From: Halichondria panicea
Taxonomy: Eukaryota; Porifera; Demospongiae; Suberitida; Halichondriidae
DNA: 64,000 nt
Assembly (NCBI RefSeq): GCF_963675165.1
Contig: NC_087391.1
Location: forward strand, 2,251,001-2,315,000
Reading direction: 5' to 3'
Shown here: positions 1-54,296 of the stretch, one piece after another
Layout of the letters: the number at the start of each line of letters is the position of its first letter
Position numbering within the stretch: the stretch's first letter is position 1
Made by a program: the position numbers and the translations under genes
The notes under the pieces: model-generated
The model's database searches: none
What the model saw: only the letters and a program-made list of their open reading frames with translations
What the model was told of the DNA's origin: nothing

Positions 1-1200
1 AAACACCAGTCACTTACCAGGTTCACAGTTACTTCCAGTGAATCCAGCCAGACAGGTGGTACATCTTGTGGATATGTTTCATCCAGATAGACACAGTGCA
101 CAGTTAAGGCTACTATCATATCCAGGCAAACAAGTGGAGCAGCTGGAGCTGAGATCAAGATTGCCTATGCATTCAGAGCAATTTGTGTTAGGGTCAAAGT
201 TAGTGGCCAAGCATGTTTGACAGAGTGTTGCTGGGTCCCCTCCTGGTAGAGCACACACACTGCAGTCTGTATCAGTGAACCTGTCTGGTTGTAGGCAGAG
301 AGAGCAGTTGGTGACTGGGTCTCTGTTGGGTAGGCAACTAGTACAGTCCGAGGTAATGTCCCAGCCTGGTAGGCACTGGGTGCAGACTACAAGAGGTGAG
401 GGGTCAAATCGGTGATCAGTACATTGACATGTCGCCACTCGTGGATTGTTCTGAGGTGTTGTGGTACAGTCAGATCCACAGAAACCAGGAGAGCACTCGA
501 CTCTGAAACTCATGGTCATGTGAGATATGTTGTGGAATCCAGTGAACGTCATCTCCTCTGTGAAGTCTGCTCCAAGTTGGAGGGTGTCCAGGTCAATCAA
601 CAAACTGTCTATTATGTTCGGGAGTCTGCTGTCCACGGCTTCTATGAAGAATTGAATCCGCCCCTATATATAGAAGGCAGGTAAAACCAAAAACCACTCC
701 ATGAAAAAAACATTAACTTACTGTCCATGCATTAAAAGTTGTGCTTGAAACAGGTAGAGGATTGGGTGCTACCCCCAGTAGTGCTGTTGGACCTTGACCG
801 AATGTTGTGCTCATTTCATTGAATGGGCAAGTGCTGGGGGACACTGAACAGTCTGTGAAGTTGTACCCAGTGCTGGTTCTTATCTCTAGTGATGCACGGA
901 ATGGTCTGATGGTCCAACGGAACCTGGTGTCACAGCTATTCTCTCCTGTGTTGTCACAGTTTCCAGATTTGAGTGGTAGTTCATCACAACACACTGGACC
1001 AAATGTTGTGTTTAAGTGACATTCAGCACACAGTCCGGTTGGGTTGGTGTAATTGACCAAGTTGACAGTTAGAATAAATTCACCACACACCTGCAAAGGA
1101 AATGTTTGAGCTCAGGCAATTTTCTGACCTCTAAAAGTAGCAACAGCTGGGATGACAATTAATGCCGCGTCCTAAATAGAGGTAAATGTAGCCACACCAT

Positions 1201-1251
1201 AGCCTCGATTCTAGCGGAATCAAATGTTTTTAAGTGGCCTGAAATCGAGGC
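1201..1251. repeat. Short hairpin element with CCTCGAT ends in intron 1 of gene A
   Basis: Starts AGCCTCGATTC and ends GAAATCGAGGC, an imperfect inverted repeat. It lies within a larger degenerate repeat in intron 1 marked by 'CTCTAAATATGC' strings. Counterparts: 9418-9468 (B), about 18224-18272 (C) and about 40878-40934 (F). Confidence 0.6.
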
Positions 1252-1387
1252 AAGTAGACTCTGTAGAGCTACCTTCAATTAGATGCGACTCTCTAAATAT
1301 GCAACACCAGGACTTCAACATAATTTTTCAACCTCCAAATGAAGCGACCTCTATTTTATGCTGTAGTTTTTTTATTTTGATTCTTAC

Positions 1388-1459
1388 AGTTTTGGATGTG
1401 GCCATCAGTATGACCGTGAGTAGTGCCACACGTAACATGTATCCTCTGGTAACCATCAT
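1388..1459 (-). other. Exon 1 of gene A (signal peptide)
   Basis: The exon encodes a short basic n-region followed by the hydrophobic stretch VALLTVILMATS and ends at a GTAAGA donor. Two adjacent ATGs (1457-1459 and 1454-1456) are possible starts. The same exon recurs at 9615-9683, 18417-18488, 27034-27105, 33666-33737, 41131-41208 and 54201-54296, and it defines the 5' end of each array member. Confidence 0.7.
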
Positions 1460-5450: not shown

Positions 5451-5517
5451 GAGCCTACTAATGGGATAGTTATACAAGATGCAACTGGTTATCATGTACT
5501 ATAATATTATATGCATT

Positions 5518-5573: not shown

Positions 5574-5590
5574 ATAATTATATGCATCAA

Positions 5591-5914: not shown

Positions 5915-7295
5915 TCACTGCCCTAGGTCATAATGAGATTCGGCCTCAAGTGTTATCTTGTCAGGCGTTGTGTTCATGTACACAGAGCTAGCCAGGGGGG
6001 CCAATGCAGGGGGCAATGCATTTGTACCATCTATAGGATTGTCGACGTAGTCATACGAATGTTTGACAGAGGAGGAACCAGAAAGGAATTCGCTAGCGTC
6101 TGCATAATCATAAGTGTGTTGAGACGTTTCCTCTTTTATCGAAGTAGGAAGAAAGTTGCTAGTTTCTGTATAATCGTGTTCAGGTCGAGCTGTTTGCTCT
6201 TGGGGATGATCAGCAGTATCGTACAAACTTCCATTAGGAGGTAGAGCTTTAGGCTGTACCTGTTTCGAGTGATGATTATTTGCTACATCGTATGCAGGGA
6301 GCTCAGCTTCATGCTTACCCAGTTTCGAGTATGCATTAACACTAGGTATAACTGGAGGAGGGGGGTAAGTTGTATCGTACTCGTCTCTCCCACGAATATC
6401 ATCATCTTCAATCTCTTCATAAGCTCCAGCAGACTTTGATGGATGCCTGGTCCCCTTCTTAGAAAGTGACTCCTCCGAAGGGGGGAAGGCTTCGTCATAG
6501 ACCGGCTGCTCGATAAATGTGGCCGTGTCATAGTCAGCCAGAGAAGTTGGTTGAGGGGTTACACTTGTTATTGGAGGTTGATGCAATTTAGAATAGTCTT
6601 TATTCTGTGGGTTGGTAAGAGGTGGTTGATGAGTATGATCAGCTGTGTCGTAAACAGGTGTGCCTTCTCTTGGCAGGTTGTTATCAAGACAGCTAGCTGT
6701 ATCATACATTGGTCCATCGAGAGTAGATGTGAGATCCTGGGTGCCTGTTTTTACCGTATGTGAGGGTGGGCTGACACTAGGGTGAGAGTAATCATCTTCT
6801 GTGTGCACATTCGAGGTCTCGTATAGCGAATTAGTAAATGCGTGATCATCTGATGACCCTGTTCCAGTCTTTAAGTCCATTTCCAATCCAGGGCCATATA
6901 TTGGATTCTGAAACTTATGTTCTGCTGACGATCCACTTCCAGTTCCAGTAATATCGTAAGCATTATGAGCTGCTCCTTCATCTGTTATAACAATAGCAGG
7001 AAACACGCACAAAGGTTATAACAATGAGTTGCTGGGAAAATATGAGCATGCAACTATAGCCATTGTAAGAAAGCATTATTACGAAGTATAACATGCCTAC
7101 CAATAGAGTTACACACAGTATAGGGATTAAATTAATACAGCATTAAACCGTGCAGCTCACCTGAAACAAATTTGATATGACCTCTCCTTTGATTTTTATA
7201 CACGAGTACACACACAATGATCACCAAGACAATTATCAACAGGAAGAGAGCTCCACCCGCTATACCACCCACAAGACCACCATTCACGGCAGAAA
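5915..7295 (-). other. Exons 4 and 5 of gene B (transmembrane and cytoplasmic tail)
   Basis: Exon 4 is 7161-7295 and exon 5 is 5915-6981, joined across a 179-bp intron in phase 1. Exon 4 is flanked by phase-1 introns on both sides, so skipping it would keep the frame and give a form without a membrane anchor. The tail has 22 tyrosines, including AYEEIEDDDI and VYMNTT. Confidence 0.75.
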
Positions 7296-9683
7296 CTGAC
7301 GGTGTAAATACAGGTCACATCAATCAACACTTGTTTGCACCTAATTAGTTGGCTAGATTGTGCATTAAGAATGATATGCCTGTGCGTGCACACCAAAACA
7401 TATCACTAAAGGAGGTTGGTCATGTAACAGCGCAGTTTTACGGAGGAATGTGCATGTACGGATAAAAAAGAAAAGATATACGGTACCTACAGAGAAAATT
7501 TGCTGTCATATAGCTATAGTAAGCTAAAGACTGCTAACGATCACAGCAGTCTACACTACATTGTAATAGTAAGTAATGATACGTCCTATACAGAATGTGA
7601 GTAGCATACCGTATAGCAGGTATTATTTTTCGAGGGTATAAACTTTCACGGAAAGACCGGTAGGAAGGATTTCGCGGATTTAATGTTCATGGGAGTATCA
7701 GCCCTTTTGCGCATGTATGCATACTGATATTAATGTTTGTGGGTATAAATGTTCGCGGTATAATTATGCTTGATCAACAAAAACCGCGAAAGTTTATACC
7801 TTCAAAATATACCCGCTATGTAGTCAAACTCAAAGCAATTAATTTATAAGCCAGATACTTATAGGTACATTGAGTTATGTCTTGGTTTGGTCTTAATATG
7901 GCTAGTAAACAGGAAGTGTAATAAAGGATTGAAAAACATTCAAGAACGCAACATTAAGATAAAATAGCTGACTTAGCGGGTTAAATCGTAACCAACCTTC
8001 TCTGGAACTCCCCCTAGTCAACTAAAACTTGTAAAAAGGTCAGCAATCAATAATAGCAATTAAGCACCTATACACCATTTACTAACAAACACCAATCACT
8101 TACCAGGTTCACAGTTACTTCCAGTGAATCCAGCCAGACAGGTGGTACATCTTGTGGATATGTTTCGTCCAGATAGACACAGTGAACAGTTAAGGCTACT
8201 ATCATATCCAGGCAAACAAGTGGAGCAGCTGGAGCTGAGATCAAGATTGCCTATGCATTCAGAGCAATTTGTGTTAGGGTCAAAGTTAGTGGCCAAGCAT
8301 GTTTGACAGAGTGTTGCTGGGTCCCCTTCTGGTAGAGCACACACACTTGTACTGCAGTCTGCATCAGTGAACCTGTCTGGTTGTAGGCAGAGGGAGCAGT
8401 TGGTGATTGGGTCTCTGTTGGGTAGGCAACTAATACAGTACGAGGTGATGTCCCAGCCTGGTAGACACTGGTTGCAGTTGGTAGAGGGATCATAGGTGGT
8501 CTGTACGCAAGTGGAGCAGCCAGTTGTAATATCCAGGTTATAGAGGCATTCGTTACAAGATGAAGGGTCTAATCGGTTATCAGTACATGTTAGAGTGCCA
8601 TCAGCTTGACATGTCGCTACTCGTGGATTGTTCTGAGGTGTGGTCATACAGTCAGGTCCACAGAAACCAGGAGAGCACTCGACTCTGAAACTCATGGTCA
8701 TGTGAGATATGTTGTGGACTCCAGTGAACATCATCTCCTCTGTAAAGTCTGCTCCAAGTTGGAGGTTGTCCAGGTCAATCAACAGACTGTCTATTATGTT
8801 CGGAAGTCCACTGTCCAATGCTTCTATGAAAAACTGAATTCGTCCCTAATAATTATATAAAATTATCAAAATTGTATATACGTGCAATGAATATGAACTT
8901 ACTGTCCATGCAGTCAAATCTGTTTTTGAAACAGGTAAAGGATTTTCTGTTACTCCCAGTAGTGCTGTTAGACTTTGATTGAATGTTGTGCTCATTTCAC
9001 TGAATGGGCAAGTGCTGGGGGACACTGTACAGTCTGTAAAGAAGTAGGGAGGGTTGACAGGATCATTTAGAGGTCTTGTCTCTAGTGATGCATCGAATGG
9101 TCTGATGGTCCAACGGAACCTGGTGTCACATCTCTCCTCTCCTGTATTGTCACAGTTTACTGAAATGTATGGTAGTTCATCACAACACACTGGTATTGTC
9201 TCTGTAGAATGGCTTGTATTCAGAGGATTCTGACATTCAGCACATAGTCCGGTTGGGTTGGTGTAATTGACCAAGTTGACAGTTAGAATAAATTCACCAC
9301 ACACCTGCAAAGGAAATGTTTGAGCTCAGGCAATTTTCTGACCTCTAAAAGTAGCGACTGCTGGGATGACAATTAATGCCGCGTCCTAAATAGAGATAAA
9401 TGTAGCCACACCATAGCCTCGATTCTAGCGGAATCAAATGTTTTTAAGTGGCCTGAAATCGAGGCAAGTAAACTCTGTAGAGCTACCTTCAATTAGATGC
9501 GACCCTCTAAATATGCGACACCAGGACTTCAACATAATTTTTCAACCTCCAAATGAAGCGACCTCTGGCTTCGTAATTATTTTATGCTGTAGTTTTTTTA
9601 TTTTTTATTCTCACAGTTTTGGATGTGGCCATCAGTATGACCGTGAGTAGTGCCACACGTAACAAGTATCCTCTGGTAACCAT
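5915..9683 (-). CDS. Receptor gene B: DSL-like, cysteine-module, single-pass receptor with polytyrosine tail (intact, 804 aa)
   Basis: Exons: 9615-9683, 8903-9304, 8104-8845, 7161-7295 and 5915-6981; they sum to 805 codons including TGA. Residues 1-23 are a signal peptide. Residues 24-157 resemble the MNNL C2-like domain of Notch ligands (GEFILTVNLVNYTNPTGLC, then CCDELP, then CDTRFRWTIRPF). Residues 158-405 start with FFIEALDSGLPN and a DSL-like FRVECSPGFCGPDC, then 11 CxxC modules (one irregular, CSTSVC). A helix follows at about 412-437 with Gly-rich entry. Residues 450-804 are a tail with four YDTA, two YSKL, YEEI and YMN motifs plus proline-rich PPPP stretches. Known family logic: DSL proteins bind Notch in trans; YEEI is the preferred Src-family SH2 site and YxN a Grb2 site. 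The receptor role is my inference. Start chosen as the only in-frame ATG before the hydrophobic core. Confidence 0.75.
7607..7819. mobile_element. Inverted-repeat element (TATAGCRGGTATTAT...) in intron 3 of gene B
   Basis: Ends are TACCGTATAGCAGGTAT and its near inverse ATACCCGCTAT, with inner mirrored strings GGGTATAAACTTTC / AAAGTTTATACC. A counterpart is at the same intron position of gene C (about 16360-16565), so it predates the B/C duplication. A separate copy is at 63746-63939. Noncoding. Confidence 0.65.
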
Positions 9684-14123: not shown

Positions 14124-14783
14124 ATATATGCATCAAAGTTTAAATCGGGAGGTCACCAATTCACCAACAATGCCAATGAGTAATTGGAGCAGTATCTAGC
14201 TAGCTGACATGCCAGAACTGACGTGAAACTGTTTGTGGTCACACCACCTCGCTCCGTGTTTCATATGCATTCCTATAATAAGCAATTGCAAAGTAAGAGT
14301 ACAAATGCATCCTCATTAACAACGTTCTATAATATGATAGGCCACCTCTTCAACCATGGAAGCCACACCTACATGCTCAAGTTCTGTATAGTGCACAAAA
14401 CACTCACGCAGCCACACCACTACATGGATAGCTGTCATAAACATGGTGTGTGTGTGTCCCTTCCATCGAAAGTATTCGTGACAATTACGGCCAGTCAACA
14501 ACTGTACAATACATGTGGTACAACGTACCGTGTAAAGGGTGTACAAAAGAACGGGAGGGGATGAGCTATTATGATTATACAGCTTTACAATTCAAGTGAA
14601 CCAGAAGTGAAAGTACAAAACTATATAATACAAACGAACATGTCCACTCACTGCCCTAGATCATAATGAGATTCGGCCTCAAGTGTTATCTTGCCAGGTG
14701 TTGTGTTTGTGTACAAAGAGCTAGCCAGGGGGGCCAATGCAGGGGGCAATGCATTTGTACCATCTATAGGATTGTCTACATAG

Positions 14784-17700
14784 TCATACGAATTTGGTAG
14801 AGGAGGGACCAGAAAGGAATTCATTAGCATCTGCATAATCATAAGTGCGTTGAGACGTTTCCTCTTTTATCGAAGTAGGAAGGAAGTCACTAGTTTCTGT
14901 ATAATCGTGTTCAGGTCGAGCTGCTTGCTCTTGGGGATAATCAGCAGTACCGTACAAACTTCCATTAGGAGGTGGAGCTTTAGGCTGTACCTGTTTCGAG
15001 TGATGATTATTTGCTACATCGTATGCAGGAAGCTCAGCTTCATGCTTACCCAGTTTCGAGTATGCATTAACACTAGGCATAACTGGAGGAGGGGGGTAAG
15101 TTGTATCGTACTCGTCTCTCCCACAGATATCCTCATCTTCAATCTCTTCATAAGCTCCAGCAGACTTTGACGGATGCCTGGTCCCTTTCTTAGAAAGGGG
15201 ATCACCCAATGGAGGGAAGGCTTCGTCATAGACCGGCTGCTCAATAAAGGTGGCCGTGTCATAGTCAGCCAGAGAAGTTGGCTGAGGTGTTACACTTGTT
15301 ATTGGAGGTTGACGCAGTTTAGAATAGTCTTCATCCGGTGGGTTGCGAGGTTGATGCAATTTAGAATAGTCTTTATTCTGTGCGTTGGTAAGAGGTGGTT
15401 GATGAGTATGATCAGCTGTGTCGTAAACAGGTGTGCCTTCTCTTGGCAGGTTGTTATCAAGACAGCTAGCTGTATCATACATTGGTCCATCGAGAGTAGA
15501 TGTGAGATCCTGGGTGCCTGTTTTTACCGTATGTGAGGGCGGGCCGACACTAGGGTGAGAGTAACCATCTTCTGTGTGCACATTCGAGGTCTCGTATAGC
15601 GAATTAGTAAATGCGTGATCATCTGATGACCCTGTTCCAGTCTTTAAGTCCATTTCCAATCCAGGGCCATATATTGGATTCTGAAACTTATGTTCTGCTG
15701 ACGATCCACTTCCAGTTCCAGTAATATCGTAAGCATTATGAGCTGCTCCTTCACCTGTTATAACAATAGCAGGAAACACGCACAAAGGTTATAACAATGA
15801 GTTGCTGGGAAAATATGAGCATGCAACTATAGCCATTGTAGGAAAGCATTATTACAAAGTATAACATGCCTACCAATAGAGTTACACACAGTATAAGGAT
15901 TCAAATTCAACTGCACAGCTCACCTGAAACAAATTTGATATGACCTCTCCTTCGATTTTTACACACGAGCACACACACAATGATCACCAAGACGATTATC
16001 ACCAGGAAGAGAGCTCCACCCGCTATACCACCCACAAGACCACCATTCACAGAAGACACTGACAATGTAAATACAGGTCACATCAATCAACACTTGTTTT
16101 AGCACCTAATTGGATTATGGATTAAAAATTTATTTAAGAATGATATGCCTGTGCGTGCACACCAAAACACAACTAAAGGAGGTTGGTCATGTAATAGCGC
16201 AGTTTTACGGAGGAATGTGCATGTACGGATAAAAAAGAAAAGATATACGTACCTACAGAGAAAAGTTGCTGTCATAGCTATAGTAAGCTAAAGACTGCTA
16301 ACGATCGCAGCATTCTACACTAGTAAGTAATGATACGTCCTATACAGAATGTGAGTAGCATACCATATAGCAGATATTATTTTTTGAGGGTATAAACTTT
16401 CGCGGAAAGACTGGTAGGAAGGATTTCGCAGATATAATGTTCGTGAGAGTATTAGCCCTTTGGCGCATGCATGCATGCTGATATTAATGTTCGTGGGTAT
16501 AAATGTTCGTGGTACATGCAAAAACCGCGAAAATTTATACCTTTGAAATAATTATACCCGCTATAATTATGGTAGTCATACTCGAAGCAATTACTTTATA
16601 AGCCAGATACTTACAGGTACATTGATTGGTTTGGTCTTAGTAGGGCTCGTAAACAGGAGGTGTAATATAGGATTGAAAAAAATGCAAGAACGCAACATTA
16701 AGATAAAATAGCTGAGTTAGCGGGTTAAACCGTGACCAACCTCCTCTGGAGTCAACTAAAACTTGAAGAGTAGGTAAACATCACAGCAATTAATCATTAC
16801 TAATTAAGAACCTATACACATTTACTAAACAAACACCAGTCACTTACCAGGTTCACAGTTACTTCCAGTGAATCCAGCCAGACAGGTGGTACATCTTGTG
16901 GATATGTTTCGTCCAGATAGACACAGTGCACAGTTAAGGCTACTATCATATCCAGGCAAACAAGTGGAGCAGCTGGAGCTGAGATCAAGATTGCCTATGC
17001 ATTCAGAGCAATTTGTGTTAGGGTCAAAGTTAGTGGCCAAGCATGTTTGACAGAGTGTTGCTGGGTCCCCTCCTGGTAGAGCACACACACTGCAGTCTGT
17101 ATCAGTGAACCTATCTGGTTGTAGGCAGAGGGAGCAGTTGGTGACTGGGTCTGGGTCTCTGTTGGGTAGGCAACTAGTACAGTCCGAAGTGATGTCCCAG
17201 CCTGGTAGACACTGGGTGCAGTTGGTAGAGGGATCATAGCTGGTCTGTACGCAAGTGGAGCAGCCTGTAGTAATATCCAGGTTGTAGAGGCAGTCGTTGC
17301 AGGCTACAAGAGGTGAAGGGTCTAATCGGTTGTTAGTACATGTTAGACTACCATCAGCTTGACATGTCGCTACTAGTGGATTGGTCTGAGGTGTGGTGGT
17401 ACAGTCAGGTCCACAGAAACCAGGAGAGCACTCGACTCTGAAACTCATGGTCATGTGAGATATGTTGTGGAATCCAGTGAACGTCATCTCCTCTGTGAAG
17501 TCTGCTCCAAGTTGGAGATTGTCCAGGTTAATCAACAGACTGTCTATTATGTTTGGGAGTCCACTATCCACGGCTTCTATGAAGAACTGAATTCGTCCCT
17601 ATCATTATTATAAATTATTTTACGTGAAATGGATATGAACTTACTGTCCACATAGTAAAATCTGTTTTTGAAACTGGCAGAGGATTTTCTGTTACTCCCA

Positions 17701-18488
17701 GTAGAGCTGTTAGACCTTGATCGAATGTTGTGCTCATTTCACTAAACGGGCAAGTGCTGGGGGACATTGTACAGTTTGTGAAAAAATATGGAGGGTTGGC
17801 AGCATTGGGTATACTGGGGGGTCTTGCCTCCAGTGATGCACCAAATGGTCTGATGGTCCAACGGAACCTGGTGTCACATTTCTCCTCTCCTGTGTTGTCA
17901 CAGTTACCAGATTTGAATGGTAGCTCATCACAGCACACTGGTAGCTGGTCAGCACTTGTCACGTTGATCAGTCTAGTCTGACATTCAGCACACAGTCCGG
18001 TTGGGTTGGTGTAGTTGACCAAGTTGACAGTGAGAATAAATTCACCACTTACCTGCTAAGAAGGAAATTATACCGATTTTGACATACTGTAATACCTAGA
18101 TTTAAGGTGACCCTCCAAATATGCAACACCTTCAAGCTTGGGCAATTTTCTGACCTCTAAAGTAGCACCAGCTGCTTAATGTCACGTCTTAAATGGAGGT
18201 AAATGTAGCCACACCCTAGACTTGATTCCGGCTACTGAAAAATAATGTTTTTAAGCGGCCTGAAATCGAGGCAAGTAGACTATAGAGTGGGAGCTACCTC
18301 CATTTACGACACCATGACTTAATATAATATTTATTTGTCAACTTCCAAAAGAAGTGACCTCTGGTTTTGTAATTATTTAAGGTATATGCTGTAATTTTTT
18401 TTATTTTGATTCTTACAGTTTTGGATGTGGCCATCAGTATGACCGTGAGTAGTGCCACACGTAACATGTATCCTTTGGTAACCATCAT
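14784..18488 (-). CDS. Receptor gene C: DSL-like, cysteine-module receptor with frameshifted distal tail (778 aa)
   Basis: Exons: 18417-18488, 17645-18052, 16848-17598, 15924-16058 and 14784-15754. The order is signal peptide (1-24), MNNL-like domain (25-160), DSL-like segment plus 11 CxxC modules (161-410), transmembrane exon (411-455) and tail (456-778). The tail keeps YEEI and carries an in-frame duplication giving two successive DYSKL motifs (KDYSKLHQP, EDYSKLRQP). Near 14797 a 2-bp loss relative to B, E and F shifts the frame, so it ends ...PSSTKFV at 14784 and lacks the last ~45 residues, including YDYVDNP and HYDLGQ. The old stop is still visible at 14648-14650. The shorter helix region (GGIAGGALFL) matches B, its closest relative. 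Probably still makes a receptor. Confidence 0.65.
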
Positions 18489-22080: not shown

Positions 22081-22771
22081 ATAAATTGGCTACGTTTGAT
22101 TTATTGAAAAGGGAAGTTTAATGTCTAGTACGCCACTGTAATAGATCTGTTCGGTATTGATGCTCAACCCTATTATAACATGAGGCTATAATTATTTGCT
22201 CAAAGTTTAAATCAGGAGGTCACCACTCACCAACAGTGAGTAATTGATAATTTCCATCGTATAATAAGCAATTGCAAAGTAAGAGTACAAAAGCATCCTC
22301 ATTAACAACATTCTATTGTAACGATAGGTCAGCTGTTCCACCAGGAAGCCACACCCCTACATGCTCAAGTTTTGTATAGTGTACAAAACACACACGTACG
22401 CAGCCACACGGATAGCTGTCATAAACATGTTGTGTGTGTGACCCTTCAATCGAAAGTATTCGTGTCAATTATGGCCAGTTCAACAACTGTATACAATACA
22501 TGTGGTACAACCAGCAGTGTAAAGGGTGCACAAAAGAATGGGAGGGGATGAGCTATTATGATTATACAGCTTAACAATTCAAGTGAACTAGAAGTGAAAG
22601 TACAAAACTATATAATACAAACGAATATGTCCACTCACTTCCCTAGGTCATAATGGGATTCGGCCTCAAGTGTTATCTTGCCAGGTGTTGTGTTCGTGTA
22701 TACAGAGCTAGCCAGGGGGGCCAATGCAGGGGGTATTGCATTCATACTATCTATAGGATTGTCCACGTAGT

Positions 22772-23015
22772 TGAGATAACTTCAATAATTCATTAAATCA
22801 GAACTCTGATACATACAAAATACACAGGCTATTTATACAAAAACAATACTAGAAAGAACCTTCTAGAACAATAGTACAGAAATGACTAAATAAGAACATG
22901 AAACCACTAGAACTAACACAACACAGTATTTACGGAATCACAGGTTTACAGTACAGTATTTACGGAATCACAAGTCTTTATCTTAATGTTAGTTCCATGT
23001 CGTAAGGATACCACA
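22772..23015 (-). mobile_element. Solo LTR inserted in the tail exon of gene D
   Basis: A 244-bp insertion is flanked by the 5-bp direct repeat GTAGT (22767-22771 and 23016-23020). Read on the minus strand it begins TGTGGTATCC and ends GTTATCTCA (TG...CA). It contains a TATAAATAG box and a short internal tandem repeat around GATTCCGTAAATACTGT. The other tail exons run straight through this site. These are the hallmarks of a solo LTR left by recombination of an LTR retrotransposon. It interrupts gene D after the SYDY motif. Confidence 0.85.
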
Positions 23016-24609: not shown

Positions 24610-24647
<38 letters not shown>

Positions 24648-30609: not shown

Positions 30610-33600
30610 TCACTGCCCTAGGTCATAATGAGATTCGGCCTCAAGTGTTATCTTGCCAGGCGTTGTGTTCGTGTACACAGAGCTAGCCAGGGGGGCTAAT
30701 GCAGGGGGCAATGCATTTGAACCATCTATAGGATTGTCTACGTAGTCATACGAATGTTTGACAGAGGAAGAACCAGAAAGGAATTCGTTAGCGTCTGCAT
30801 ATTCACTGGTGCGTTGAGACGTTTCCTCTTTTATTGAAGTAGGAAGAAAGTCACTAGTTTCTGTATAATCGTGTTCAGGTCGAGTTGCTTGCTCTTGGGG
30901 ATAATCAGCAGTATCGTACAAACTTCCATTAGGAGGTGGAGCTTTAGGCTGTAACTGTTGTGGGTAATGATTATTCGCTACATCGTATGCAGGGAGCTCA
31001 GCTTCATGCTTACCCAGTTTCAAGTATGCATTAACACTAGGTATAACTGTAGGAGGGGGGTAAGTTGTATCGTACTCGTCTCTCCCACGGATATCCTCAT
31101 CTTCAATCTCTTCATAAGCTCCAGCAGACTTTGACGGATGCCTGGTCCCTTTCTTAGAAAGGGGATCACCCAATGGAGGGAAGGCTTCGTCATAGACTGG
31201 CTGCTCAATAAAGGTGGCCGTGTCATAGTCAGCCAGAGAAGTTGGCTGAGGTGTTACACTTGTTATTGGAGGTTGACGCAGTTTAGAATATTCTTTATTC
31301 TGTGGGTTGGTAGGAGGTGGTTGATGAGTATGATCAGCTGTGTCGTAAACAGGTGTGCCTTCTCTTGGCAGGATGATATCAAGACAGCTGGCTGTATCAT
31401 ACATTGGTTGATCAAGAGTAGACGTGAGATCCTGGGTGCCTGTTTTTACCGTATGTGAGGGCGGGCTGACACTAGGGTGAGAGTAACCATCTTTCGTGTG
31501 CACGTTCGAGGTCTCGTACAGTGAATTAGTAAATGCGTGATCATTTGATGACCCTGTTCCAGTCTTTGAGCCCATTTCCAATCCAGGGCCATATATCGGA
31601 TTCTGAAACTTATGTTCTGCCGATGATCCAGTTCCAGTTCCAGCATTATCGTAGGCATAATGAGCTGAGGAAACACATACTAAATGAGTGTAAATGAATT
31701 GACAAAACTATCTTCGTCAGGAAGCCTTTGATATGCCCTTAATTGTGTAAACAAACAGGAGGATATTCATGACAACACCATTCAAACGGTACTTCTTTTT
31801 TTGCCAGGACAGACTACTTCTGAAAAACGTACCCTTCTCCCATTGACCTTCACCTCACATCACACACATTTTCACCCACCTGAAACAAATTTGACGTGAC
31901 CTCTCCTTCGAACTTGACATACGAGCACACACACAACGATCACCAAGACGATAATCACCAGGAAGAGAGCTCCGCCCACTCCACCAGCTATACCACCCAC
32001 AAGACCAACATTCACGGAAGAGCCTGCATGTTGTTGTAAATGGAAGTACAAATAGATCACATTATTCTACAACCTAATGAATAAAAACCGTATGGCTCTG
32101 GCGCATGGACACCATAGAATATGGCTACTCAGTACAACATAACAGTTGAAGAGACGGTAAAGGTCACGAATGCTAGTAAAGCATTATCAAACCAAACACC
32201 AGTCACTCACCAAGTTTGCAGTTACTTCCAGACAAACAGGTGGTACAGTTGGTAGAGAGATTTCTGTTGGGTAGACACTGGGTGCAGTTTGTCTGTAGAT
32301 CATAGAATTCCAACAAACATGATGTACAGTTAGTGGTTGGGTCATAGTTGTCATCCAAACAGGTAGAACAGTTTGTAGTGTTGTCCAGGTTGTAGAGGCA
32401 GTCCTTGCAGGCTACAAGAGGTGAATGGTCTAATCGGTTGTTAGTACACGTTAGACTACCATCAGTTTGACATGTCGCCACTCGTGGATTGTTCAGAGGT
32501 GTGGTGGTACAGTCAGGTCCACAGAAACCAGGAGAGCACTCGACTCTAAAACTCATGGTCATGTGAGATATGTTGTGGTATCCAGTGAACGTCATCTCCT
32601 CTGTGAAGTCTGCTCCAAGTTGGAGGGTGTCCAGGTCAATCAACAGACTGTCTGTTATGTTTGGGAGTCCACTATCCACAGCTTCTATAAAGAACTGTAC
32701 TCGTCCCTACATACAACATGTACATGTAAAGGTAGGTGAAATGAACACAAACTTACTGTCCACGACAAAATATCTGTTTTTGAAACAGGTAGAGGATTGG
32801 GTGTTACTCCCAGTAGTGCTGTTGGACCTTGACCGAATGTTGTGCTCATTTCACTGAATGGGCAAGTGTTGGGGGACATTGTACAGTCTGTGAAGAAGTA
32901 CCCCATACTAGGTCTTGTCTCTAGCGATGTACCGAATGGTCTGATGATCCAACGGAACCTGGTGTCACATCTCCCCTCTCCTGTGTTGTTACAGTTGCCA
33001 GACATGAATGGTAGCTCATCACAGCACACTGGTACTAAATTGTTAGCACTTGCTACATCACTCAGTGGAATAGCACATTCAGCACACAGTCCGGTTGGGT
33101 TGGTGTAGTTGATGAAGTGGACAGTAAGAATAAATTCACCACTCACCTACAAGAGATATACCAATTTTGATAAACAAGAGTATGATCATAATGCTGATAC
33201 TAATGAAGGCCACCAGTAAAAAAGCACTCCAAACGGAGTTAAAATTTGCCATCAATGACTGATTGTAAACTTTTGACTATATAGTCTAACAAGCGGAATG
33301 TTTGAGAGAGGGAACGTCTGGTAACTATTGTACAGATTCCGTGGCCCTTGCTGGTCGGTAATAATTATGTGTTTAGTGGGTGGTAACACTCCTTGATTTG
33401 CCAATTTTAACATAAAATAAACGCAAAAAAGATAATAAGTTTATAAAGAGTTCAGACCAAGCAAGAGCTAGCTAGTTGTGAATAAAAATTAATTTGTCTA
33501 CATGTGATTTGTCTACATGTGACTTAACGAATATCTTGCAGGTGACTATACATTCCTCAGACAATAGCAATAGTGACCAGACGTTTCACTCCCCCCCCCA

Positions 33601-33737
33601 GCCCCAACGACGTGTTTGCGAGACTACTTCTTTACCAGAGGTCTTCTCTTCAATTATTTACTCACAGTTTTGGATGTGATCATCAGCACGACTGCGATTA
33701 GTGCCACACGTAAAATGTATCCTCTGATAACCACCAT
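30610..33737 (-). CDS. Receptor gene E: short-ectodomain DSL-like receptor with polytyrosine tail (intact, 718 aa)
   Basis: Exons: 33666-33737, 32757-33146, 32211-32706, 31880-32023 and 30610-31664, total 719 codons with stop. Signal peptide 1-24; MNNL-like 25-154 (CAECAIPLSDV, CCDELPFMSG, CDTRFRWIIRPF); DSL-like FRVECSPGFCGPDC, then only five CxxC modules in residues 155-319, the shortest ectodomain of the array; transmembrane exon 320-367 (GGVGGALFLVIIVLVIVVC); tail 368-718 ending HYDLGQ. Exon 5 uses an acceptor that replaces the usual TDEGA start with AHYAYDNAG. The tail has YEEI, four YDTA and YTN. Intron 1 (519 bp) lacks the repeat found in A, B, C and F. All splice sites are canonical. 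Confidence 0.75.
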
Positions 33738-34575: not shown

Positions 34576-34601
34576 TATAGCAATCAAGGAACCACACCAT
34601 T

Positions 34602-37000: not shown

Positions 37001-40000
37001 TCACTGCCCTAGGTCATAATGAGACTCGGCCTCAACTGTTATCTTGCCAGGTGTTGTGTTCGTGTACACAGAGCTAGCCAGGGGGGCCAATGCAGGGGGC
37101 AACGCATTTGTACCATCTATAGGATTGTCCACGTAGTCATACGAACGTTTGGCAGAGGAGGAACCAGAAAGGAATTCGTTAGCGTCTGCATAATCATAAG
37201 TGTGTTGAGACGTTTCCTCTTTTATCAAAGTAGGAAGAAAGTCGCTAGTTTCTGTATAATCGTGTTCAGGTCGAGCTGCTTGCTCTTGGGGATAATCGGC
37301 AGTATCATACAAACTTCCATTAGGAGGTGGAGCTTTAGGCTGTACCTGTTTTGGGTGATGATTATTCGCTACATCGTATGCAGGGAGCTCAGCTTCAAGT
37401 CTACCCAGTTTCGAGTACACATTAACACTAGGTATAACTGCAGGAGGAGGATAAGTTGTATCGTACTCGTCTCTTCCACGGATATCCTCATCGTCAATAT
37501 CTTCATAAGCTCCAGCAGACTTTGATGGATGCCTGGTCCCCTTCTTAGAAAGTGAATCGTCTGGAGGAGGGAAAGCTTCGTCATAGACCGGCTGCTCAAT
37601 AAATATGGCTGTGTCATAGTCACCCAGAGAAGTTGGTTGGGGGGTTACCGGAGGTTGACGCAGTTTAGAATAGTCTTCATCCAATGGGTTAGTAGGAGGT
37701 GGTTGATGAGTATGATCAGCTGTGTCGTAAACAGGTGTGCCTTCTCTCGGCAGGATGTTATCAAGACAGCTGGCTGTATCATACATTGGTCCATCGAGAG
37801 TAGACGTGAGATCCTGGGTGCCTGTTTTTACCGTATGTGAGGGTGGGCCGACACTAGGGTGAGAGTAATCATCTTCTGTGTGCACGTTCGAGGTCTCGTA
37901 CAGTGAGTTAGTAAATGCGCGATCATCTGATGACCCTGTTCCAGTTTTTGAGTTCATTTCCAATCCAGGGCCATATATCGGATTCTGAAACTTATGTCCT
38001 GCTGACGATCCAGTTCCAGTTCCAGTTCCAATATTATTGTAAGCAGTACGAGCTGCTCCATCATCTATTAACAATAGCAGGAAAAGATAAGAGTTACTTA
38101 CATGCTATACAATAAGTCCCCTCCAAGGCAAAAAATAGAGAAACTACATAATCATATTCTAGCCTAGGTTAGTGCTTATTGTAAACAACCTCAAACCCGG
38201 CATCAATTATGTAAATACAGAAAACATAATTATGGTTACCCGTAGGATATATTAATACAGCACCTGTTTGCAGCACCGTTCAAACAGTCCAAACATGCAC
38301 TCTTCCTTTTTTTTTTGCTAATTCATAGGGAATGACTATTATTCCAGAACTCAACCATTTCCTTCACACACATAATTATGTATTAGGTTAAGTAGACAGT
38401 TTAGTTATGCCGAGTTATTAACTTTTAACTCACCTGAAACAAACTTGATGTGACCTCTTTTCCGAACTTGACACACGAGCACACATACAACAATCACCAA
38501 GACGATGATTACTAGGAAGAGAGCTCCACCCACTCCACCAGCTATACCACCCACAAGACCAACATCCACGAACAAGTCTGTTGTAACTGAAAATACGATT
38601 TTAGAATTAATTTTAAAATCCGCCCCTAGCGCATACACACCATTTCACGGTCAGAGGAGGCAGGTATGAAGCATTAACCTCTACTCATTATAAGGTCGCT
38701 AATGGACTGATCAGTTTTTATTTGCAAACCATTCAGCTATGTAACCTGTTTTTAAGGGTATCTGCTAAAGCAAAGGCTCATGGGGTGCAGTTCCAGATAT
38801 GAAGATGCCATAGACGTGGAAAAAAGAAACTTCGATTTGAAAATAAACCCTATCCCTAAATAACGGTGGCTGAATCCAAATATTCCTACATCCTAAAGCA
38901 GATATACACTATTAACCGTAATCACCCCAGAACATAAACGTTGGTAAAGTAACTATCAAGCTTACAAAACACCAGTCACTCACCAGCTTCGCAGTTATTT
39001 CCAATGAATCCAGACAGACAGGTGGTACATCTTGTGGATATGTTTCGTTCAGAAAGACACACTGTACAGTTACGGCTGCTATCATATCCAGGCAGACAAG
39101 TGGAGCAGCTGGAGCTGAGATCGCGATGATCTATGCATTCAGAGCAATTTGTGTTAGGGTCAAAGTTAGTGGCCAAACATGTTTGACAGAGTGTTGCTGG
39201 ATCCCCTCCTGGTAGAGCACACACACTGCAGTCCGTATCAGTGAACCTGTCTGGTTTTAGGCAGAGGGAGCAGTTGGTGACTGGATCTCTGTTGGGTAGG
39301 CAACTAGTACAGTCCGATGTGATGTCCCAGCCTGGTAGACACTGGGTGCAGTTGGTAGAGAGGTCTCTGTTGGGTAGACACTGGGTGCAGTTGGTAGAGG
39401 GATCTCTGTTGGGTAGACACTGGGTGCAGTTGGTAGAGGGATCTCTATTGGGTAGACACTGGGTGCAGTTGGTAGAGGGATCTCTGTTGGGTAGGCACTG
39501 GGTGCAGTTTGTCTGTAGGTCGTAGAATTCCAACAAACATGATGTACAGCCATTGAGAGGATTGAAGTTTGTGTCTAAGCATGACAAACAGTTGGTCGAT
39601 GGGTCGTATCTTGTACCTATAATGCACGTAGAGCAATTTTTATCAGCATCATAGTTTGTATTGATACATGTTGAACAGGTTTGGCCAATATTGTATCTAG
39701 GAAGGCAGGCTATGCAATTGGTGGTTGGGTCATAGTTGGTCTGTACACAAGTGGAGCAGCCAGTAGTAATATCCAGGTTATAGAGGCAGTCGTTGCAGGC
39801 TACAGGGTCTAATCGGTTGTCAGTACATGTTAGAGTGCCATTAGTTTGACATGTCGCTACTCGTGGATTGTTCTGAGGTGTGGTGGTACAGTCAGGTCCA
39901 CAGAAACCAGGAGAGCACTCGACTCTAAAAGTCATGGTCATGTGAGATATGTTGTGGTTTCCAGTGAACGTCATTTCCTCTGTGAAGTCTGCTCCAAGTT

Positions 40001-41208
40001 GGAGGTTGTCCAGGTCAATCAACAGACTGTCTATTATGTACGGGAGTTTACTATCCACGGCTTCTATGAAGAACTGAATTCGTCCCTATAGAGGTAAGAA
40101 ATTATCAAAACAATACCACAGAGAAAAGTACTACTTACCGTCCACGTATTAAAATCTGTGCTTGAAACAGGCAAAGGATTGGGTGTTACCCCTAGTAGTG
40201 CTGTTGGACCTTGACCGAATGTTGTGCTCATTTCACTGAATGGGCAAGTGCTGGGGGACATTGAACAGTCTGTGAAGCTGTACCCCATGCTGGGTCTTGT
40301 CTCCAGTGATGCACCGAATGATCTGATGGTCCAACGGAACCTTGTGTCACATCTATCCTCTCCTGTGTTGTTACAGTTGCCAGAACTAGATATAAATGGT
40401 AGTTCATCACAACACACTGGTATTGTGTCTGTAGGATAGCTTGTATTCAGCGGTCTCTGGCATTCAGCACACAGTCCGGTTGGGTTGGTGTAGTTGACCA
40501 AGTTGACAGTGAGAATAAAGTTACCACTCACCGGCTAAGAAATAGAACTTGATAAGCACTACAAACAATATAGAGTTACCGTAATTGATGTAATTACAGC
40601 GCCACTCTAATTATACGAATTCGAAATTTTCGGCCATAATATTATGTATAGCACCAATTTGTTTTATGTATACACCGTAATTATAGTCTAGTAAATTTTT
40701 TCTGGCGCTGTAATTACATTAACTACGGTACCGTAAGACCTCGATTTAAGGCGACCCTCCAAATATGCGACACCCAGGAGTTTCAGCAATTTTCTGACCT
40801 CTAAAAGTAGCAACAGCTGCGTTGACAATTAATTTTTAATGTCGCGTTCTAAATAGAGGTAAATGTAGCCACTCCCTAGCCTCGATTGTAGCCCACTGGA
40901 AAATCAGTTTTTAAGCGGCCTGAAATTGAGGCAAGTATATAGACTCTGTAAAGTTACCTCCAATTAGATGCGACCCTCTAAATATGCGACACGTACCAGG
41001 ACTTCAATATAATTTTTCAACCTCCAAAAGAAGCGACCTCTGGCTTCATAATTATTAAAAAGTGTCGCTTTAAATCGAGATCTTACGGTAGTCTAGTTTG
41101 ATTCGTCTGCTTGGATATTAATTTACTCACTGTTTTAGATGTGACCATCAGCACGACTGAGAGTATTAGTACCACACGACGTAATATGCATCCTCTGATA
41201 TTAACCAT
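37001..41208 (-). CDS. Receptor gene F: longest DSL-like, cysteine-module receptor with polytyrosine tail (intact, 930 aa)
   Basis: Exons: 41131-41208, 40139-40534, 38984-40085, 38434-38586 and 37001-38064; 931 codons with stop. Signal peptide 1-26; MNNL-like 27-158; DSL-like FRVECSPGFCGPDC then 20 CxxC modules within residues 159-525; transmembrane exon 526-576; tail 577-930 with 23 tyrosines (YNN and YTN Grb2-type, four YDTA-like, YSKL, AYEDIDDEDI in place of YEEI). Four near-identical CTQCLPNRDPSTN modules (39-bp DNA repeats, about 39345-39510) show recent expansion. At exon 2 the usual CAG acceptor has become CCG; using the TTAG three bases upstream keeps the frame and adds one proline. 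Ancestral DSL roles are in cell contact signalling; the tail suggests kinase-dependent signalling in the receptor-bearing cell (inference). Confidence 0.75.
39345..39510 (-). repeat. 39-bp tandem repeats coding CTQCLPNRDPSTN modules in gene F
   Basis: About four consecutive copies of a 39-base unit containing TCTCTGTTGGGTAGACACTG (plus strand), differing by one to three bases. The period equals 13 codons, one cysteine module, so copy-number change keeps the frame. Other genes have one or two copies here. Confidence 0.85.
40577..40730. mobile_element. 154-bp inverted-repeat element in intron 1 of gene F
   Basis: Left TACCGTAATTGATGTAATTACAGCGCCA-type end (first 20: TACCGTAATTGATGTAATTA) and right mirror TGGCGCTGTAATTACATTAAC...GGTA. 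No coding content. Only F has it. Confidence 0.7.
40729..41090. mobile_element. ~360-bp inverted-repeat element in intron 1 of gene F, shared by A, B, C
   Basis: Left TACCGTAAGACCTCGATTTA and right mirror TAAATCGAGATCTTACGGTA, with GGCGACCCTCCAAATATGCG strings inside. Degenerate counterparts occupy intron 1 of A (about 1110-1380), B (about 9325-9600) and C (about 18085-18410), but not D, E or G. A smaller CCTCGAT hairpin is nested in it. Confidence 0.65.
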
Positions 41209-46750: not shown

Positions 46751-46985
46751 CCAGACCTGCCACAAGCTTAACACAGTTTGGCACTGTAGACATGAGTGTA
46801 TGTCGTCTCTAATATAGGACATTGTGGTATCAAGTGCATAAACAATACTAATAGTTTTACAAAGCAGCACAATAGAAAATTTATTTTCAACATGTGACTT
46901 GACTATAATTATAGTTCACAAAGATCATTATAGTGATCATGTTCTATCGGTCTAACAGTACAAAGACAAAGTGCACAGACAAAAC
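46751..46985. promoter_or_regulatory. Intergenic gap between divergent ABCD4-like and SLC15-like copies (copy 1)
   Basis: About 235 bp separate the most 5' ABCD remnant (minus) from the SLC15-like ATG (plus). The same arrangement at 61,520-61,736 includes a TATATATAGG string at about 61561-61570. It would serve as a shared promoter region if either gene is expressed; no motif beyond the TATA-like string is seen. Confidence 0.3.
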
Positions 46986-49853: not shown

Positions 49854-49911
49854 CACTGCCCTAGGTCACATGAGATTCGGCCAGGTTCGTGTTGTGTTTG
49901 TGTACAAAGAG

Positions 49912-52900
49912 CTAGCCAGGGGGGGCCAATGCAGGGGGCAATGCATTCGTATCATCTATAGGATTGTCTACGTAGTCATACGAATGTTTGACAGAGGAGG
50001 AACCAGAAAGGAATTCATTTGCATCTGCATAATCACAAGTGCGTTGAGACGTTTCCTCTTTCATCAAAGTATGAAGAGATTTTATCGAAGTAGGAAGAAA
50101 GTCACTAGTTTCTGCATAATCATGTTCAGGTCGAGTTGCTTGTTCTTGGGGATAATTGGCAGTATCGTACAGACTTCCATTAGGAGGTGGAGCTTTAGGC
50201 TGCACCTGTTTTGGGTAATGATTATTCGCTACATCGTATGCAGGAAGCTCAGCTTCATGCTTACCCAGTTTCGAGTACATGTTAACACTAGGTATAACTG
50301 CAGGAGGGGGGTAAGTTGTATCGTACTCGTCTCTCCCACGGATATCATCATCGTCAATCTCTTCATAAGCTCCAGCAGACTTTGATGGATGCCTGGTCCC
50401 CTTCTTAGAAAGTGAATCGTCTGGAGGAGGGAAGGCTTCGTCATAGACCGGCTGCTCGATAAATGTGGCCGTGTCATAGTCAGCCAGAGAAGGTGTTATG
50501 CTTATTACCGGAGGTTGACGCAGTTTAGAATAGTCTTCATCCTGTGGGTTGGTAGGAGGTGGTCGATGAGTATGATCAGCTGTGTCGTAAACAGGTGAGC
50601 TTTCTCTCGGCAGGTTGTCATCAAGATAGCTGGCTGTATCGTACATTGGTCCATCGAGAGTAGACGTGAGATCCTGGGTGCCTGTTTTTACCGTATGTGA
50701 AGGTGGGTTGACACTAGGGTGAGAGTAATCATCTTCTGTGCGCACGTTTGAGGTCTCGTACAGTGAATTAGTAAATGCGTGATCATCTGATGATCCTGTT
50801 CCAGTCTTTAAGTCCATTTCCAATCCAGGGCCATATATCGGATTCAGAAACTTATGTTCTGCTAACGATCCAGTTCCAGTTCCAGTTCCAGCGTCATTGT
50901 AAGCAGTACGAGCTGCTCCATCATCTGTTAACAATAGCAGGAAGAATATAAAAAATATGAGTACGTATGTGCTATATACAACAAGTCGTCTCTAGTCCTA
51001 TAGCCTTGGTGCTTATAGCTTCATGTTGTATGCATGGTAACTCCACCAAGGCATTAATACTACCCCCAGTGCTGCTTTCATTGTTATGCATGTGAACACA
51101 GAAAAAATACAATTAGGATTACTACAACACCGTTCAAACAGCATTTCAAACAGTCAAATAGTCTTCTTTGCTGCTAATCAACTGTCTTAACCAATGGTAC
51201 AAGCTGCGCTGTGCTAATGCCTAGCTCTCGCCGTTGTTTTGCTTTCACTCAAAAACTATTAGAAGAGGTATAATTATGCCTCGGTGCGCATGCGCAAGCG
51301 AGGTATACGGTAGTGTGTTTGTGTGTCTGTGTGTGTGTGTGTCTGTGTGTGTGTGTGTGTAGACTGCTACAGCTGCTCAAGGATGAATGAAGTGCAAGTA
51401 AGAGTTTCTATAGGCTTCTAGTCATGTTTACTTGGATTTTAATTCGTGGATTTGCAAAATAATGCTTCGTTCTCGAGTTATGCCTAGTTTTGCTTACTTG
51501 GAATGCCATTGCAGCCTTTTCAGAAGAGCACGCAGCCAAACTTGTTTACCGAGTGTTGCTACTCTACTTAGTAGTTAGCTCTGCACTAGAACGCTAGCTA
51601 TTGGTAGCTGCAAGAGTGAGAAGCGAGCTGTAAGGCTCTGTTAATGCAGCCATTAATTTTAGACTTGAACTTTTGGCATAGATCGTTTTTAACAACAATC
51701 ATGGTCGATCATTACCCACTCTCCAAGTTTTTGCATGCAGCAAAATTAATTTGTTTATCATGTGTATAAAACTTAAAGCTATTAGTAGCTTTATGGTATG
51801 TAGCTTTGGCATCTCCACCGAGGCATCAGCACCCGCGGTGCTTTCATTATATATATTGATTGCAATTGTTGACAGAATTGAATTCCACAGTCATTATAGG
51901 AGAGGAGCTGAATGGAGACACAGTCAGCTTTACTGTATCCCTTGTGCGGCTACACCTTGAAGCATAATTAGGGACTAACTCCAGAACCCAGCCCATTCCT
52001 TCACACGTATTAGGTTAACTCACCTGAAATAAATTTTATGTGACTTCTTTTCCGAACTTGACACACGAGCACACATACAACAATCACCAAGACGATGATC
52101 ACCAGGAAGAGAGCTCCACCCACTCCACCAGCTATACCACCCACAAGACCAACATCAACGGAAGAGGCTGTTGAATTAATTCATCTAATTAGCACGGCTA
52201 AACTAATATAATAATTATGCAAGTCTCCACGCACCAAGGCACGTACGGTTAGACGAAGTGCACAAAATTTAACTCTACTGACATTTGCATGCTTTCTAAC
52301 CGTAACCCTTCTTCAATTGCAATATTTCACTGCAGAACTGTTCTTTAAGGGTAGCTACAGCATATGCTTGTTATAAGGGTGTGGCTGCATGGACATGAAT
52401 ACGGAAAAACGAAGCAAGCGACTCTAAGAGACAACTGACCACGGCACCCCTCTGTCTCACACAATATTGGGTTAGGGTCTGGGTTAAAGATTATAAGAAC
52501 ATCCAGTCAATCAGCACGCAGAACTAATTTGTAGCTGAATCTCCACCTATTTTACAGATCAGATATTAATTAGTGTAACTATAGGCCTCCTCTGTCGTCA
52601 CAGTTATATAAAAATGGTAATAGCGACTCTACTAAAGCATATACCCTTACTAAAACATCAGTCACTCACCAAGTTCACAGTTACTTCCAGTGAATCCAGG
52701 CAGACAGGTGGTACATCTTCTGGATATGTTTCGTCCAGATAGACACACTGCACAGTCACGGTTACTATCGTATCCAGGCAGACAAGTGGAGCAGCTGGAG
52801 CCGAGATTGCGATTGCCTATGCACTGAGAGCAATTTGTGGTAGGGTCAAAGTTAGTGGCTAAACATGTTTGACAGAGTGTTGCTGGGTCCCCTCCTGGTA

Positions 52901-54296
52901 GAGCACACACACTGCAGTCTGTATCAGTGAACCTGTCTGGTTGTAGGCAGAGGGAGCAGTTGGTGACTGGGTCTCTGTTGGGTAGGCAACTAGTACAGTC
53001 CGAGGTGATGTCCCAGCCTGGTAGACACTGGGTGCAGTTGGTAGAGAGATCTCTGTTGGGTAGGCACTGGGTGCAGTTTGTCTGTGGGTTGTAGAATTCC
53101 AACAAACATGCTGAGCAACCATCAGAAGGATTGAAGTTTGTGTCCACACATGATTCACAGTTATTCAATCGATCATACCTTGTGCCCATAGAACAAGAGC
53201 AATTTGTATCAGGATTATAGTTGACGCTGATACATGTTGAGCAATTTTGGTTAATATTGTATCCAAGAAGGCAGGCTGTGCAATTAGAGACTGGGTCTAA
53301 TCGATTATCAGTACATCTTAGAGTGCCATCAGTTCGACATGTCGCCACTTGTGGATTGTTCTGAGGTGTGGTGGAACAGTCAGGTCCACAGAAACCAGGA
53401 GAGCACTCGACCCTGAAACTCATGGTCATGTGAGATATGTTGTGGTATCCAGTGAACGTCATCTCCTCTGTGAAGTCTGCTCCAAGTTGGAGGTTGTCCA
53501 GGTCAATCAACAGACTGTCTATTATGTTCGGGAGTCCACTATCCAATGCTTCTATGAAAAACTGGATTCGTCCCTATAATTATAGAGGTAAAAAAATGAT
53601 AGATTCTACAGAGAAATATTATACTTACCATCCACATAGTAAAATCTGTACTTGAAACAGGCAGAGGATTGGGTGTTACTCCCAGTAGTGCTGTTGGACC
53701 TTGACCGAATGTTGTGCTCATTTCACTGAATGGGCAAGTGCTGGAGGATATTGTACAGTCTGTGAAGTTGTACCCCATGCTGGGTCTTGTCTCTAGTGAT
53801 GCACCAAATGATCTGATGGTCCAACGGAACCTGGTGTCACATCTCCCCTCTCCTGTGTTGTCACAGTTGGTGTTTCTGAATGGTTGATCATCACAACACA
53901 CTGGTACTAGCTGGTCAGCACTTGCCACATGACTCAGTGGAACAGCACATTCAGCACACAGTCCGGTTGGGTTAGTGTAGTTGATGAAGTTGACAGTAAG
54001 AATAAATTCACTCCTAACCTATACAAATTAAGAGATATTCATATTCTGATATGCACAATAATCTATAAACTGGTCGCTTTTTATGTGAGGCTAGTGTACG
54101 CAAAACAAGAAAGAATTATATATGGAGCTAAATTATAGACGAAATGTCCAGGGGCACATAATTAGAAAGGGGTTTTACTTCGAAAAAATACGGTACTCAC
54201 TGCTTTAGATGCGACTATTAGCACGACTGTGATTAGTGCCACATGTAACATGAGGACATGCACTCCTGGTAACATGCATCTTCCGATAACCACCAT
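49912..54296 (-). CDS. Receptor gene G: DSL-like, cysteine-module receptor with frameshifted tail end (848 aa)
   Basis: Exons: 54201-54296, 53629-54018, 52670-53573, 52024-52167 and 49912-50924. Signal peptide 1-32 (longer n-region than in other copies); MNNL-like 33-162; DSL-like plus 15 CxxC modules (one reduced to CSC) in 163-463; transmembrane exon 464-511; tail 512-848. A G-run near 49917-49925 has seven Gs where B has six, so the tail ends ALAPPG and loses about 25 residues (YTN and HYDLGQ). A further ~17-bp loss near 49880 damages the remaining end. An extra ~24 bp in the tail adds a second KEETS-like stretch. YEEI is kept (AYEEIDDDDI). Intron 4 (1.1 kb) holds the segment inverted relative to gene D. 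Confidence 0.65.
51262..51950. repeat. Segment in intron 4 of gene G, inverted copy of that in gene D
   Basis: Carries TTATGCCTCGGTGCGCATGC, a GT microsatellite (about 51317-51360), ACTGCTACAGCTGCTCAAGG and GGCATCTCCACCGAGGCATC, the reverse complement of 24058-24675 in the same internal order. Borders estimated by eye. Confidence 0.65.

Follow-up and report, generated by a model that had tools for sequence, protein, structure and literature searches.

A large clustered family of EGF-less, tyrosine-tailed receptors, probably derived from Delta-type Notch ligands, in the sponge Halichondria panicea

Bilaterian Delta and Jagged ligands of Notch begin with a C2 domain and a DSL unit, the same head order as in the genes described below, but they continue with EGF repeats, and neither an altered DSL unit nor a stalk of cysteine modules is known among their features. 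KIR, SIRP, and Hydractinia Alr receptors form tandem families in which shared ectodomains are combined with differing tyrosine-bearing tails. The receptors that serve tissue compatibility and microbe sensing in sponges are, to our knowledge, poorly known. For the sponge Amphimedon queenslandica, one study describes a Delta4 (AmqDelta4) without EGF repeats and predicted SH2 and PTB sites in the Deltas (PMC3482393), and another gives an EGF count of 0 for one Amphimedon Delta (PMC2770060). Here, we analyzed a stretch of 64,000 nucleotides of the Halichondria panicea genome (contig C15, 2251001-2315000, referred to as the window) that holds seven tandem genes, A to G, in which a head like that of Notch ligands is combined with a tyrosine-rich tail. 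We consider it probable that these genes encode recognition receptors that derive from Delta, have lost the EGF repeats, carry tyrosine tails, and belong to a large family in which heads and tails evolve separately. Within this reading, what concerns homology and tail stands firmer than the whole, and the recognition part is what we infer.

A search of the window with the exons of gene B returned the head exons of seven genes and the tails of six, all on the minus strand. Exon 1 encodes a hydrophobic leader, exon 2 the MNNL-like part, exon 3 the end of C2 together with the DSL-like unit and cysteine modules, exon 4 a hydrophobic helix, and exon 5 the tail; signal peptide and helix were assigned by eye. 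In the splice models, all donors are GT and all acceptors AG (two acceptors were set by eye), and the six genes with five exons in the window have junction phases of 0,0,1,1. Gene A shows 0,0,1 over its three in-window exons. Its exons 4 and 5, which the earlier note had placed outside the window, were located to the left at C15:2.2486-2.2500 Mb, with an open tail of 23 tyrosines. Seven copies with one exon plan and common phases, as described in that note, were thus confirmed. The extent that it gave for the array (18-54296) is correct for these seven copies, but seven more genes lie to the left, and the array counts 14 genes in all.

Since single-exon Pfam calls yielded no usable MNNL or DSL assignment, intermediates within the genome and profile comparison were used instead. 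Searched against its own genome (131.5 Mb, 39 contigs), the exon-3 head of gene B matched C14:4395906-4396226 (E 3.1e-8, 34% identity), a place that is itself over the Pfam DSL cut-off (49.5 bits) and has an MNNL match beside it (40.9 bits). Profile-profile comparison of the window exons with exons of the same genome gave 6.7e-16 for DSL (seven rows, with the C14 exon) and 1.4e-10 for MNNL (nine rows), the rows having been picked by eye from 18 DSL-type and 14 MNNL-type places listed. Because two of the MNNL rows (C7 and C15:40 kb) had first been picked up by their resemblance to the array, both comparisons were repeated with strict sets of six Pfam-recognized rows each, from which the C14 exon was left out on the DSL side, and the values were 1.7e-14 for DSL and 5.9e-7 for MNNL. 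Controls with swapped pairing, built from the wider sets, reached 0.0032 (DSL) and 0.022 (MNNL). The canonical DSL profile of this genome found Jagged and Delta structures in the PDB, with a best E of 3.6e-19. In the DSL unit of the array, the third canonical cysteine is gone, an extra cysteine is present in GFCG, and the GHY-type loop is absent; gene B reads PQNNPRVATC, and the other five aligned genes are similar. In view of the profile matches on the one hand and the changes of cysteines and loop on the other, the sequences support a head that is homologous to Notch ligands (C2/MNNL plus a modified DSL) and yet divergent. The MNNL/DSL-like head proposed in the earlier note holds by profile-profile comparison, but not by direct Pfam search.

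The DSL unit is followed by a stalk that consists mainly of a 13-residue cysteine module, LPNRDPSTNCTQC, corresponding to 39 bp. Wherever exon 3 can be read to its end, the stalk has 3 to 58 CxxC motifs. In exon 3 of genes B, F, and G, Pfam matched no EGF repeat, in line with the claim that EGF repeats are absent. Downstream of the DSL region, the 38 exons that were counted carry 2 to 17 N-x-S/T sequons. Several canonical DSL exons of this genome have module-like ends, for example CFQGYMDPSTNCTQC and CLEGFNNTSTNCTQC. When seven canonical sequences were scored for a module origin, the top stretch lay at the DSL end in four (p 0.001, 0.0074, 0.032, and 0.13) and elsewhere in the other three, which suggests that the stalk may have arisen by amplification of a DSL-end segment.

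Up to the first stop, the tails contain 22 (B), 20 (C), 19 (D), 24 (E), 23 (F), and 22 (G) tyrosines, which agrees with the previously described tail of about 350 residues and 22 tyrosines, and these tails are under constraint. Conservation of the long tail was scored with 12 of the 14 tails of the window's array, using sites with at least 10 letters. The 20 scored tyrosines had a mean conservation of 0.978 compared with 0.874 for 308 other residues (permutation p 0.00015), and 16 of these tyrosines were invariant as against 117 of the others. Even between gene B and the most divergent tail of the array, 16 of 18 aligned tyrosines were kept, compared with 136 of 289 other residues (p 4e-4). 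The tyrosines of the long tail are selectively conserved. Tail B includes FQNPIY, YEEI, YMNT, and ten YD-containing sites. FxNPxY motifs are suited for PTB domains and endocytic adaptors, YEEI for Src-type SH2 domains, and YxN for Grb2-type docking.

The family extends far beyond the window. An exon-2 query matched 43 places at E <= 1.2e-39, among 55 matches genome-wide, and the family comprises about 43 gene copies, part of them broken; the clustered, length-variable, and partly degraded family of the earlier note is real and larger than claimed. The window's array spans C15:2.187-2.305 Mb, with its 14 exon-2 heads at C15:2.190-2.305 Mb, and the exon-2 query found no head exon to the right of the window on C15. 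A second array, on the same strand, has 14 heads at C15:1.07-1.13 Mb, and a third, on the opposite strand, has 10 heads at C15:1.259-1.319 Mb. Five heads lie outside the arrays, at C15:1.92 Mb, C15:1.96 Mb, C15:37 kb, and, as a pair, at C6:5.30 Mb. All 23 pieces detected with the 350-residue tail are in the window's array. A shorter tail, which contains NPVY and in most copies ends in YDYIQV, was recognized for all 10 heads of the third array, for heads of the second array, and for the C15:1.92-Mb copy; a relationship between long and short tail was not established (0.17). In the C6 pair, the tail is of yet another type (NPLY or NPLH, NPVY, YDYIQM/I), which is a distant relative of the short tail. 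The copy at C15:37 kb is a minimal member with two 13-residue modules after the DSL-like unit and a weakly related tyrosine-rich tail (E 0.001). MNNL-type genes adjoin this member at C15:37-43 kb (L038 2803-5751), one of which encodes several EGF repeats and lacks a DSL match in Pfam; this is possibly an intermediate neighborhood.

Of genes A to G, only B, E, and F are open from ATG to stop. Gene A has a TGA within exon 3 and a broken frame in exon 4, the tail frame of C is broken near 14800, that of G is lost near the 3' end, and the tail of D is split after SYDY by an insertion of about 240 bp without GT-AG ends (window 22780-23020), possibly a small mobile element. Such damage would be expected if this were a decaying tandem array of little function in which similarity is kept by gene conversion. 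However, 10 of the 14 tails in the array are open, and pooled Nei-Gojobori ratios of nonsynonymous to synonymous substitution (dN/dS), from pairs that are non-independent, ranged by array from 0.28 to 0.37 in the exon-3 head and from 0.56 to 0.66 in exon 2, and stood at 0.37 in the tail. By these estimates, all three regions are under purifying selection. As the ratios for exon 3 and the tail are far below 1, and as the tyrosines are selectively conserved, mere decay is most improbable. Exon 2 was divided into 25 overlapping windows of 12 codons, and in one of them, after CAEC, the ratio of nonsynonymous to synonymous differences (pN/pS) reached 1.13. By analogy with Jagged1, this variable segment would be the C2 strand 1-2 apex loop. 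C2 apex loops vary among human Notch ligands (PMC5538765).

Heads and tails appear to have had different fates. Between the window's array and the other two, exon 2 showed a synonymous difference of 0.26-0.27 and exon 3 one of 0.22-0.23, close to the 0.20-0.25 found within arrays. In exon 4, the difference was 0.72 (one row per gene, 25 genes, namely 10 of 14, 6 of 14, and 9 of 10 from the first, second, and third array), and the tails could not be aligned. The reverse pattern was found between the second and third arrays, which lie in opposite orientation about 0.15 Mb apart: helix exons differ by 0.04 and heads by 0.23-0.24, and such near-identical helix exons behind differing heads are a sign of recent helix homogenization. 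A tree was built from 44 heads, of which 39 came from the arrays and satellites close to them, one was the minimal member, and four were canonical. The arrays did not separate on it: 16 changes of array label were required, compared with 17.6 in shuffles, of which 58 of 200 were as low, and none of 200 bootstrap trees put any array on one side of a branch. These sequence patterns are most plainly read as a copying of head exons from array to array, or else as a swapping and homogenization of helix-tail cassettes, and in either case heads and tails would have separate histories. A lone cassette swap at the founding of the window's array would leave the mixture of heads unexplained.

Several results weigh against the proposed derivation from Delta, against the recognition role, or against the separate evolution of heads and tails. 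The Pfam scan covered exons 2 and 3 of B, F, and G (three of the seven genes), the tails of B and F, and one open reading frame of a transporter; in these exons 2 and 3, nothing was over the MNNL or DSL cut-off, so that the hidden Markov model check proposed in the earlier note came out negative, and the best MNNL E was 0.27. With the array's own DSL-region profile, no significant Notch ligand was found in the PDB, the best being Delta-like 4 at E 0.93, and an AlphaFold2 model of the gene B head was uninterpretable (mean predicted local distance difference test score 35.6, predicted template modeling score 0.29). Tyrosine-selective conservation was not significant in the short tail (p 0.20, 19 rows), this tail was recognized for only seven of the 14 heads of the second array, and tail B contains no YxxPhi pair with the spacing of an immunoreceptor tyrosine-based activation motif (ITAM). 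The elevated pN/pS in a single window is no proof of positive selection. Exon 4 of the window's array may be unrelated to, rather than diverged from, that of the other arrays. The forks of the head tree are mostly weak (25 of 41 inner branches), and the nearest neighbor came from the own array for 26 of 38 heads in exon 2 (p < 2e-4) and for 19 of 38 in exon 3 (p 0.04); with this leaning to the own array, head exchange was at most partial.

Directly to the left of the window's array, two Delta-type genes lie on the same strand. Their MNNL and DSL exons are over the Pfam cut-off, and EGF exons follow the DSL exons of both (one by Pfam in the nearer gene, by eye in the other). In the nearer gene, a helix exon and a 238-residue tyrosine-rich open reading frame with FDNPIY come next on the same strand and, to judge from this order, are presumably spliced to it. 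The nearer gene resembles the array genes in strand, neighborhood, C2-DSL head, a module-like DSL end (TSTNCTQC), and the tyrosine-rich downstream frame, and differs from them by its EGF exons, the retained canonical DSL cysteines, and a tail that cannot be aligned over its length. Homology of the long tail to this tail was also considered (best E 0.027), and the relationship is not established. The Amphimedon Deltas (PMC3482393) resemble the array genes in having MNNL and DSL, a single helix, and SH2 and PTB sites predicted in the cytoplasmic tail, and Delta4 also in its lack of EGF repeats; unlike the array, they are five genes, and the sections of that study that were consulted make no mention of a tandem array, a cysteine-module stalk, head sharing, or array-specific tails. 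Because of the neighboring gene and the Amphimedon Deltas, the pairing of such a head with a tyrosine tail, which the earlier note had held to be unlike known Notch ligands, is a variant form of a type already known in sponges.

The same observations could be taken to mean that the genes are simply lineage-expanded Notch ligands, EGF-less Deltas that activate or cis-inhibit Notch and use the tail for ligand endocytosis alone. The C2-DSL homology, the adjoining Delta-type genes, the FxNPxY in the tail, the Notch-type Lin-12/Notch repeats (LNR) in the genome, and the EGF-less Delta of Amphimedon (PMC3482393) would all fit. However, about 43 heads, a DSL unit that has lost its third cysteine and its GHY-type loop, the variable exon-2 loop, and some 22 mostly conserved tyrosines, which exceed what endocytosis needs, render this explanation unlikely, and Notch has probably ceased to be the main partner.

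We rather propose that the array genes encode single-pass cell-surface receptors that descended from a sponge-type Delta ligand and in which the EGF repeats were replaced by the stalk of 13-residue modules. The head would bind a partner on cell surfaces or in the matrix through its variable C2 loops, and the stalk would set the reach. The tail tyrosines (in FxNPxY, YEEI, YxN, and repeated YDxA) would be phosphorylated and then recruit PTB and SH2 proteins as well as endocytic adaptors. By the copying of heads between loci or the swapping of helix-tail cassettes, one recognition repertoire could be connected to different outputs, a logic as in paired receptors elsewhere. Alternatively, the proteins could serve adhesion or aggregation, with head and glycosylatable stalk making contacts between cells or with the matrix, the tail linking to the cytoskeleton and to Src-type kinases, and no part played in recognition. 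The length-variable cysteine stalk with its sequons and the YEEI and FxNPxY motifs would suit such molecules, but adhesion needs neither common heads on loci with different tails nor a variable loop, and we regard this alternative as rather doubtful.

The family shows the layout of paired-receptor clusters, being tandem, with shared ectodomains and distinct tails, and in this it resembles recognition-receptor families of other animals. In KIR, SIRP, and Hydractinia Alr, the heads are of immunoglobulin type and the tails carry ITAMs or the corresponding inhibitory motifs (ITIMs). The decoupling of heads and tails makes the idea of an immune or self-recognition function, which the earlier note had inferred, more plausible. 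Tentatively, the family may serve the recognition of self and non-self or of microbes, using a repertoire of C2-DSL ectodomains, with variable apex loops and expandable stalks, that would be copied among loci of a single chromosome with different tyrosine tails, independently of immunoglobulin domains. No earlier report of such an array was found in the literature searched, most subscription journals being outside the search.

The features are compiled in Table 1.

Table 1. Coordinates of the array genes and related features (window positions unless C15 is stated; exons in order of transcription)
Feature	Coordinates	Strand	Exons or matches	Remarks
Gene A, exons 1-3	18..1456	minus	1456-1388, 1090-722, 663-18	splice model
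Gene B	5915..9683	minus	9683-9615, 9304-8903, 8845-8104, 7295-7161, 6981-5915	804 aa, open throughout
Gene C	14648..18485	minus	18485-18417, 18052-17645, 17598-16848, 16058-15924, 15754 onward	
Gene D	22635..27105	minus	27105-27034, 26970-26587, 26540-25877, 25369-25226, 23959 onward	
Gene E	30610..33737	minus	33737-33666, 33146-32757, 32706-32211, 32023-31880, 31664-30610	open throughout; short stalk (5 CxxC); exon 5 from 31664 placed by eye, after CAG
Gene F	37001..41208	minus	41208-41131, 40534-40139, 40085-38984, 38577-38434, 38064-37001	~927 aa, open throughout; long stalk; exon 2 from 40534 placed by eye, after TAG
39-bp tandem repeat, gene F exon 3	39334..39509	minus		LPNRDPSTNCTQC module
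Gene G	49921..54296	minus	54296-54201, 54018-53629, 53573-52670, 52167-52024, 50924 onward	
Nearer Delta-type gene	C15:2.180-2.186 Mb		DSL 2184612, 42.5 bits; MNNL 2185045, 41.1 bits; EGF exon, 29.3 bits	

Copies of a peptide-transporter-like gene are present on the plus strand at 46956-48839 (not one open frame) and 61689-63293 of the window, within the array and beyond its right end, and further copies occur at L040 and L004. The best match is to SLC15A4 structures (E 9e-8). A similar gene adjoins the C15:1.92-Mb head copy, as if it had been duplicated along with the receptor family.

MNNL exons are also clustered at C12:1.81-1.87, C14:5.64-5.73, C6:3.97-4.03, and C2:2.05-2.08 Mb, and 39 of the 53 MNNL matches listed genome-wide are over the Pfam cut-off. 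The C2 cluster is also DSL-positive; those on C12, C14 (5.6 Mb), and C6 are absent from the list of DSL matches. Exons with three consecutive DSL units at C4:5457205-5457588 and C4:5594023-5594406 resemble the multi-DSL genes that have been reported for cnidarians (PMC2770060). At least three LNR matches are over the cut-off, in two places (C10:2883718 and C17:277797-278177), meaning few Notch-like receptors compared with tens of ligand-like heads. A search with the Notch NOD family gave no match, and its controls were equally silent.

This large clustered family of Delta-derived, tyrosine-tailed genes is a concrete candidate for the receptors of compatibility and microbe sensing in sponges. 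It suggests that Notch ligands became receptors in their own right, and it presents a case in which the heads and tails of a single gene family appear to evolve apart. If the recognition reading is true, a sponge would use the logic of paired receptors.

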